Assembly (NCBI GenBank): GCA_029706075.1
Contig: JAINUG010000173.1
Location: 434,001-498,000 of the forward strand
Origin: Aldrovandia affinis
Lineage: Eukaryota > Chordata > Actinopteri > Notacanthiformes > Halosauridae
DNA: 64,000 nucleotides
Direction: 5' to 3'
The translations under genes were made by a program, and so were the position numbers. Of the stretch, positions 4,201-7,200 are shown piece by piece. A model generated the notes under the pieces. That model saw nothing but the letters and a program-made list of their open reading frames with translations, was not told the DNA's origin and made no database searches. Positions within the stretch are counted from its first letter, which is position 1. Each line of letters starts with the position of its first letter.

Positions 4201-7200
4201 TGATGCTTACCACAAAGAATAGGGGGTTCTCTGGCGTACTGGCTAAATGCACAGTCTGGCTGTCTGTCTGGCCATCTAAGCAGTACCCTGTTTAATTGGT
4301 TTAATTAAATCCCTACTCTCCATCTCAGCTGATGTATGGATCCAAGCCCTTGTATATGGTTAAGATGGTCACACTCCCTGTTGTAAACCGATTTGAGGTC
4401 CATAAATCTCACTGTATAAATACAACTAACTGCCAAAATAAAAGAGTAAAGTTTAGGGTTCTCGCAGCTCTCTTAAGGTGTAGGGTGCATTTTCCTGGCA
4501 TGGTTTAGGTCCACACACCCCCTTAGAGGGCAAAGTAAACACAAATAATTTCAAAGCCATTCTGAGCAATCACCTTCATCCTGTGTTGAAGCATTTCTAT
4601 TATGATGACAGTGGTCTCTTCCAGGATGACAATACCCACATCCACATGAGCATGAAAACGATGTGAACCATTTGCCATGGCCATCTTAGTCACCAGATCT
4701 CAACCAAATTGGACACTTCTTGGAGATTCTGGAGCAGTGGAGACCACTGTTTTACATCACCATCAAAAAAACAGCAAATTAGGGAATTTCTCATGGAAGA
4801 ATGGTGTTGCATCCTTCCAACAGAGTTCCAGACACTTTAGAATCTATGCCATTGTGCATTGAAGCTGTTCTGGAGGCTTGTGGTGGCCCAATGCCCTATT
4901 AAGACAGTTGGTGTTTCCTTTATTTTGGCAGTTACCTGGACATGTATATGTATATCAATATTATGATCATGATAATGGCTTATATATGACACTGAGGAAG
5001 AATACTGTACATTTTGAGTCTTTGGAATTGAAGAAGAAAAAAAACTGACGTAGAATAAAAAAAATAAGTAAGTGCGTGTATTCATGCGTCTGTTTTCTTG
5101 GCTCTGCATTTCCTCTGTCTCCCAAGATTCATGGAGGCGGAGCTGGACCTGAATGACATCATACAGGAGATGCACGTCATTGCCACGATGCCTGACCTCT
5201 ACCACCTCCTGGTGGAGCTCAACGCCATCCACTCCCTACTGGGGTTACTCAGCCATGAGAACACTGATATCCTTTTCCTCTAGCCATGTTACCAGTGACT
5301 TGTCAGTTTGAACAATCGTGCTCTTTTACTGTGGTGAGCAAAAGATTTTAGATTGGTTCAGGTGAGTCAATGATTGACAGCACATTGAAACCCAACCCAT
5401 TTTGGTGTTCATGAAACCTCACTCTGCTATGTCTACAGTTTGGGCTTGATCAGCAATGCGCTGTCCCAACTGTGTGGGAGAGAAGAGGAGGAGGAGTGGA
5501 TGTGGGTTTCTGTTCCAACTTGTTTCGGTGAATTTGTTATTTGAATCGGATGCCAGCTAGCCAGCCATCATTTTGGGGCCTTAGTACTGCTCATGACTGG
5601 GTTAGATTCGCTGATGGGCATTGGCTAATTTTGGAGAAAACTGCACTGAATGCTGCACTTCTCTGCAGCCTTTTTTGCTCATCTTTAACAAGGGTGTTAG
5701 TCATTTTGGAGTTGAATGTGAATAGGTGTAATTATTAACCAACAGATCTTAAAATCTGTTATTTAGACATCAGAACCACGCAGAGCTATCAACAAGTGAT
5801 TTAAAAATTTTTTTTCTTGACCTCTGCTTCTCAGAGTTTTTTTCTCTGAGAAATGGAAAGCCGTGTTCATGTGGTGTTCCTGCCTTTAGCTGTCAGAACG
5901 TCCTTAGCGTCTCCTACATATAGCCATCGCGGTGGTGGATCTGTTGCAGGAGCTGACGGATATTGACACGCTTCATGAGAGCGAGGAAGGTGCAGAAGTG
6001 CTAATCGATGCCTTGGTGAGTTCTGTTGTCATCTCTCATTACTGCTGCACAAGTCAGGCAGCCCTGGACATATTACTGATGGAAGGCTTGTGGCTTGCTA
6101 GCGGCTGTTAAGCATTAAGAATGCTACGTGTGGGCCTCCCGCGTGGTCTAGAGGTTTCAACGTCTGACACTGGCCACGGCGAATGGGGTTCGATTCCCTG
6201 GCTGCGCCAGAGTCTGCTCTGGCCGGGAGTGCCACCGGGGGTGGCAATTGACTGTCTGCCCCAGGCAGGGGGAGGGAAGCCGACAGGACGTTCGCTGCGC
6301 ACAGGAGTGGCTCTGGGCTGCTGGAGTTGCGGTCAAAAGAGACGATGCTATGCCTTCGTCACCGCCAGTCAGGGGCTACGGCAGCGAACTCTTAGTGCGA
6401 GGGGGGGATTGACATGAAAATAGCAGGTGTAATTGGCTACCAAATTGGGATAAAAACCAGGATAAAAAATCTGATCAGATAAATCCCCAAAACAATGTTT
6501 TAAGTCAGAAGATAAAGGTTTTGATTAAAGGCCAAAAATGACAGGAAATTCAAATGAGCATCAAAACCTTTAATTTTCAATGATGAACTGATAAGGTTTT
6601 CTTGCACACAGCTTTGACGCCTACAGTAGTGTAGCTATGTTGGTCAACTGTACTTCAAACAACATGTAGGCTACTCACCACTGGGCATAGGCCGGTTGCT
6701 TAGGATTCAAACCTTCTCTCAAACAGCATAATTCATGCTCTTTAAGAGTAAGTTGTCTTTCTTCTTGTATACTTGATCATGTAAAGGTGATTACAGGGTT
6801 TTTAAACCCACCTAGGACATTATTCCATTCCATGGAGACTATAGCCTATACAACTTCTGAAGTTAGGTTAACAGTAGACTCTTATAGTATTAAACTATAT
6901 AGTAATGAGGTATATTTTATGCTAAAAAAATTAAGAAAATTCCAAACCTACTAATACAATTGTTGAGAAAAACATATTTTGTTTCATTAATAATGTTTTT
7001 TTTCCCAGAAAACATGGATCACAATTATTCACACCTGAACTATTCTTTTAAATTGAATCCAACAAAAACAAATCTTCATAAATATACAACCTATTTGAAG
7101 TTCATTGGAAAGTTATGGAACTATACAGTGGCCTACAATGGTTTCCTGTTTTCCTAGGGTATAAAAAGGAGGGAACACGTGTTTGAAATACTGTGGTCAG

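Follow-up and report, generated by a model that had tools for sequence, protein, structure and literature searches.

The window, by which we mean the whole 64-kb stretch of fish DNA analysed here, holds what reads as a vertebrate ctnnbl1 gene with a single, putatively minor-type intron. In a tblastn search of the window with human CTNNBL1, the ortholog spans positions 1065-38520; a minus-strand low-complexity match (19856-20191, E = 0.003) and matches with E ≥ 1 were excluded. The refined exon model places the coding region at 1056-38523 on the plus strand. Its 15 exons are open all the way through and encode 552 residues followed by a stop codon. The exon numbers used here (2 to 16) are our own: the model starts at exon 2 and does not include exon 1. 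Thirteen of the 14 modelled introns have GT-AG ends. The remaining intron, at 5267-5917, has AT-AC ends.

The window also contains repeated sequence. A dispersed repeat at 6130-6420, SINE-like by its look, has relatives in seven further stretches of the window at 76-84% identity (8700-8892, 24021-24258, 36977-37090, 47002-47049, 49860-49953, 50066-50131 and 50894-51091). In the ctnnbl1 intron that follows the AT-AC intron, an element at 7140-7960 can be aligned with its own reverse complement for the greater part of its length (67%). We take this element to be Tc1-like. A relative of it, split in two (70% and 78%), lies at 61730-62044. Within the AT-AC intron itself, a 56-nt piece (5668-5723) resembles 60648-60703 at 84%; this repeat has no apparent relevance for the splice sites.

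The stretch at 12060-12230, in which a tRNA-like part (12083-12140) adjoins a UnaL2 LINE 3' element (12169-12222), has the appearance of a SINE that derives from a tRNA and ends in a LINE tail. A 91% copy of this stretch lies at 44801-44902. Since a tRNA-Val call at 44833-44908 falls mostly within this copy, the call is probably not a true tRNA gene. UnaL2 LINE 3' elements score above the Rfam gathering score at four places in the window, starting at 12169, 33766, 34195 and 42851. A long GT/CA microsatellite, seen in the reading frames, lies at about 31400-31600, upstream of the exon that starts at 31701.

The AT-AC intron is 651 bp long and lies on the plus strand between exon 4 (5127-5266), which ends in phase 1 with ...AAC ACT G, and exon 5 (5918-6015), which begins AT ATA GCC ATC GCG and ends GCC TTG. 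Directly after the G at 5266 the intron reads ATATCCTTTTC, and a longer reading of the donor side gives ...AACACTG followed by ATATCCTTTTCCTCTAG. The other end reads ...GTCCTTAGC GTCTCCTAC, with its last base at 5917, and the sequence just before the coding stretch at 5918 is ...GTCCTTAGCGTCTCCTAC. Read directly, the intron thus starts with ATATCCTTTT and ends with CTAC, the 3' splice site at 5914-5917. The AT-AC ends that a first-pass annotation had claimed for this intron are therefore confirmed.

Joining 5266 to 5918 yields a stretch of 79 amino acids, FMEAELDL...NTDIAIAVVD...LIDAL. It aligns ungapped with residues 110-188 of human CTNNBL1 (E = 2.4e-39; PDB 7abi chain S, 7abi_S), with 71 of 79 residues identical when counted by eye in the alignment, and it matches the Pfam family CTNNBL (PF08216, E = 1.2e-27). 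At the junction itself human DVSIA corresponds to DIAIA in the fish, and the residue count is unchanged. In the tblastn alignment the codon split by the intron corresponds to Asp156 of the human protein.

To see how strictly the protein fixes the ends, we combined all donors at 5200-5329 with all acceptors at 5860-5959, whatever their dinucleotides. The 1501 pairs that were in frame and free of stops were scored against the human CTNNBL1 protein stretch. Six joins, from 5267/5917 to 5272/5922, share the top score of 365. Because ATAT stands both at the start of the intron and at the start of the exon, the first five of these joins produce one and the same mRNA; the sixth produces the same protein. 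Only at 5267/5917 do AT-AC ends, in frame, coincide with a full U12 donor. The tied join 5269/5919, for example, has AT-AT ends and lacks the full U12 donor. The first-pass annotation had stated that the frame and the residue count are kept only with the ends 5267 and 5917. Frame and residue count are indeed kept, but "only" is too strong: the frame is kept only with these ends or with slides that give the same protein.

The same scan bears on the idea that this is an ordinary GT-AG intron whose ends have been misplaced. GT and AG sites do occur nearby, yet the scanned ranges contain just seven in-frame, stop-free GT/GC-AG pairs. The best of these seven scores 318, compared with 365 for the AT-AC join, and loses 7 residues of a conserved stretch. 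We regard misplaced ends as most improbable.

The U12-type 5' splice site is ATATCCTTT, at 5267-5275. It agrees with the consensus RTATCCTTT, as given in PMC8199999, at 9 of 9 positions and so has the full form (A/G)TATCCTTT. The other 13 ctnnbl1 donors agree with this consensus at 2-6 of 9 positions. The motif is rare, though not unique, among possible intron starts: 4 of the 5382 AT dinucleotides on the plus strand, the one at 5267 included, begin a full 9-base donor. Over both strands, ATATCCTTT occurs five times in the 64-kb window against an expectation of 0.88, and none of 100 shuffles reached five copies or more. Two of the copies lie near each other, at 50506 and 50590. The predicted pairing energy of the donor with U11 is undistinctive, being equalled by 15.6% of 5000 random 11-mers; this and the corresponding U12 calculation used short pieces of the snRNAs.

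AT-AC termini by themselves do not define the class of an intron (PMC6717393, PMC2831892). The major spliceosome also removes some AT-AC introns, as in the case of SCN4A intron 21, and the ctnnbl1 intron could in principle be such a U2-type AT-AC intron. In sodium channel genes, however, AT-AC introns of the U2 type carry a G at position +5, as described in PMC2831892. The ctnnbl1 intron has a C at +5, and this C lies within a full U12 donor. Since +5 is a C and not the G of the sodium channel introns, we call the intron U12-type, and we see next to no chance that it is a U2-type AT-AC intron.

The branch element is less distinctive. A candidate U12-type element, GTCCTTAGC, lies at 5900-5908 and agrees with TTCCTTRAC at 7 of 9 positions. 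Its candidate branch adenine, A5906, precedes the last intron base (5917) by 11 nt, and 7 bases separate the motif from the terminal AC. The optimal distance between branch point and 3' splice site is 11-13 nt (PMC8199999). Measured against the usual description of the element (TCCTTAAC, 10-20 nt from the end, best 11-13 nt), we thus find a 7/9 match at 11 nt, and equally good matches are not rare in the window. An element at least as good lies within 8-16 nt of 79 of the 3598 AC ends in the window, and within 8-30 nt of 373 of the 7317 AC or AG ends. Two of the GT-AG introns of ctnnbl1 also have a 7/9 match, at 18 and 25 nt. The exact motif TCCTTRAC was not found in the AT-AC intron, and its total in the window is 4, against 4.46 expected.

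The predicted pairing of the element with U12 (-6.5 kcal/mol, compared with -7.5 kcal/mol for the consensus) is equalled by 2.9% of 5000 random 11-mers. The duplex energies are therefore uninformative for U11 and moderately informative for U12. The pyrimidine content does not clearly set this intron apart: 12 of the last 20 positions of the AT-AC intron are pyrimidines, at the low edge of the 12-19 found in the 13 GT-AG introns.

GTCCTTAGC departs from the consensus in having a G for an A at the second of two adjacent adenines. A survey of minor introns works with two branch matrices, which differ in which of two neighbouring positions holds the branch adenine (PMC6717393). This leaves room for TCCTTAGC with its first adenine as the branch point, and we infer that A5906 would serve in this role. 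The earlier placement of TCCTTAGC 11 bases from the intron end holds for the adenine A5906, but the motif itself occupies 5901-5908. Taken by itself, the branch element is weak evidence. The case is carried by the donor, the frame and the AC end together.

A minor intron in CTNNBL1 has been described before. CTNNBL1 is one of 18 human genes reported to contain a U12/U2 twintron (Janice et al. 2013, PMC3564746). According to the same source, the ancestral intron is of the U12 type in all 18 genes, and its presence is highly conserved in vertebrates. Removal of the U12-type intron from human CTNNBL1 gives the full-length protein of 563 amino acids, and use of the U2 sites gives a product of 376 residues (PMC3564746). 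More generally, U12-type introns are reported to be conserved at a level of at least 90% in comparisons of human with other vertebrates (Lin et al. 2010). About 22% of human and 24% of mouse minor introns are of the AT-AC subtype (PMC6717393).

From this conservation and the listing of human CTNNBL1, a U12-type intron is expected in fish ctnnbl1 as well. In a literature search with zebrafish terms, no paper was seen to report a U12-type intron for fish ctnnbl1. CTNNBL1 is absent from the main texts of PMC6717393, PMC9501576, PMC8280824 and PMC2831892, and the passages of PMC11529804 and PMC5159530 that mention it concern other matters. The minor intron of CTNNBL1 thus looks already known for human and other vertebrates, real but ordinary, where we assume that the fish intron sits at the same position as the human U12 intron.

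Taken together, 5267-5917 is almost certainly a U12-type AT-AC intron of the fish CTNNBL1 ortholog, probably derived from an ancestral vertebrate minor intron. The U12-type AT-AC class assigned in the first-pass annotation is well backed by the donor, the termini, the frame and the CTNNBL1 literature, and less so by the branch element. That donor, branch element, distance and AC end should coincide by chance at the very junction required by the protein is very unlikely, in a judgement that draws on the separate counts.

Splicing of this intron would proceed as follows. At the 5' splice site ATATCCTTT would be paired with U11, while U12 would bind the TCCTT stretch of GTCCTTAGC. The attack on the 5' splice site, at A5267, would come from A5906. 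Ligation of the exons would follow after the AC that lies 11 nt past A5906, within the aspartate codon G|AT. In this way the minor spliceosome is predicted to remove 5267-5917 in this fish. When the intron is retained, translation adds four residues and then reaches an in-frame TAG at 5281-5283 (NTD-ILFL-stop), and no full-length protein would be made.

The intron also contains strong sites of the other class. A U2-type donor, CAG|GTGAGT, whose intronic part occupies 5362-5367, agrees with the consensus at 9 of 9 positions. There are only three such perfect donors on the plus strand of the 64 kb (684, 5362 and 63453), and the one at 5362 is the only one within the 14 modelled introns. Further downstream, a strong U2-type acceptor, ACCTCTGCTTCTCAG, lies at 5820-5834 with 17 of 20 pyrimidines. 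Two more inner acceptors, at 5889 and 5896, have 14 of 20 each; the 13 GT-AG acceptors of ctnnbl1 have 12-19. Both translated routes through the donor at 5362 contain the TAG at 5281.

These sites raise the possibility of a twintron in the fish, in which the U12-type AT-AC intron is rivalled by an inner U2 pair with its donor at 5362 and its acceptor at 5834, or at 5889 or 5896. Such an arrangement is compatible with the U12-type AT-AC intron proposed above, and an mRNA spliced at the inner U2 sites would carry a stop codon. Human CTNNBL1 has been named as a twintron gene (PMC3564746), listed again in a 2021 review (PMC8329584), and the perfect donor at 5362 and the pyrimidine-rich acceptor at 5834 also speak for such a pair. 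Yet the published human order is the reverse, the U12 intron being nested within the U2 intron (PMC8329584), and the candidates for outer U2 sites in the fish look weak. The GTs of the upstream exon agree with the U2 consensus at 5-6 of 9 positions (real ctnnbl1 donors, 5-8), and among the AGs located downstream of 5923 the pyrimidine count is 4-11 of 20. Moreover, the presence of a site is not the same as its use. A twintron here is unlikely, though its chance is not negligible.

The donor at 5362 could belong to a nested twintron, or it could be a cryptic site that comes into play when the minor spliceosome fails; equally, it could be unused. In the strongest version of the nested arrangement, the inner sites 5362 and 5834 would let the major spliceosome compete for the transcript and produce a stop-containing mRNA, and the balance of the two spliceosomes would set the amount of a Prp19-complex protein. 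We consider this version improbable. If it were true, the protein tuned in this way would be one that both spliceosomes need.

The U12-type reading of 5267-5917 has a simpler consequence. Because a retained intron runs into the TAG at 5281-5283, the minor spliceosome should be needed for ctnnbl1 output, and we think this dependence both likely and unsurprising. CTNNBL1 belongs to the Prp19/CDC5L complex and is required for the abundance of that complex, as reported in PMC4538830, and a 2026 structure places it in the early activated human spliceosome (PMC13332222). The first-pass annotation had combined these points: CTNNBL1 joins the Prp19/CDC5L complex, its output depends on the minor spliceosome, and the intron may therefore link the two splicing machineries. 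Membership in the complex is backed by PMC4538830. The dependence is a fair inference, although it is already implied for human by the 563-amino-acid U12 product (PMC3564746). The special link is not supported.

As a regulatory loop, such a link would run from the activity of the minor spliceosome to the level of CTNNBL1, from there to the abundance of the Prp19 complex, and from the complex to both spliceosomes. Two of its steps have something in their favour: the intron would make the ctnnbl1 mRNA U12-dependent, and Prp19 complex levels require CTNNBL1 (PMC4538830). Against the loop stands, first, that RNA-processing genes commonly carry U12-type introns (PMC9501576). Zebrafish has 662 U12-type introns in 612 genes (PMC9501576), and NCBP2, HNRPLL and ESRP1 are also among the 18 human twintron genes (PMC3564746). 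Second, CTNNBL1 is described as dispensable for cell viability (PMC4538830). Third, ctnnbl1 has no exact tandem U12 donor. In the feedback cases with a demonstrated regulatory function, SNRNP48 and RNPC3, tandem U12 donors are used (PMC8329584). Searching for exact copies of such tandem donors (USSE), we found ATATCCTTT in ctnnbl1 only at the splice site 5267; the other four copies in the window lie at 38908 and beyond, outside the gene. The corresponding search for GTATCCTTT gave a single copy, on the minus strand at 37968.

A special regulatory loop through this intron thus finds no support, and we hold it to be quite improbable. On its own, the AT-AC intron is no proof that the two spliceosomes are linked in a new way; such a link is an idea and not a finding. 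Since CTNNBL1 helps to keep the Prp19 complex abundant, ctnnbl1 may nevertheless be a fair reporter for defects of the minor spliceosome. Loss of CENATAC, for instance, affects the AT-AN subtype most (PMC8280824), to which the ctnnbl1 intron, being AT-AC, would belong.

How does the fish intron compare with known systems? With the feedback elements of SNRNP48 and RNPC3, ctnnbl1 shares that it is a gene of the splicing machinery whose mRNA would be acted on by parts of the minor spliceosome. In those two genes, however, a tandem U12 donor that is not spliced acts as an enhancer (PMC8329584), whereas ctnnbl1 is without an exact tandem copy. With the AT-AC subtype of U12-type introns, the fish intron shares the donor ATATCCTTT, the AC end and a candidate branch adenine 11 nt from the end; it differs in its branch element, which is TCCTTAGC and not TCCTTAAC. 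A third known system is the human CTNNBL1 twintron. The gene is the same, removal of the U12-type intron leads to the full-length protein, and the intron is reported to be ancestral and conserved among vertebrates (PMC3564746). The difference lies in the surrounding U2 sites: the human U2 alternative lies outside the U12 intron (PMC8329584), and the strongest U2 sites of the fish lie inside it. Our analysis contributes a fish case of a minor intron that has already been reported for CTNNBL1.
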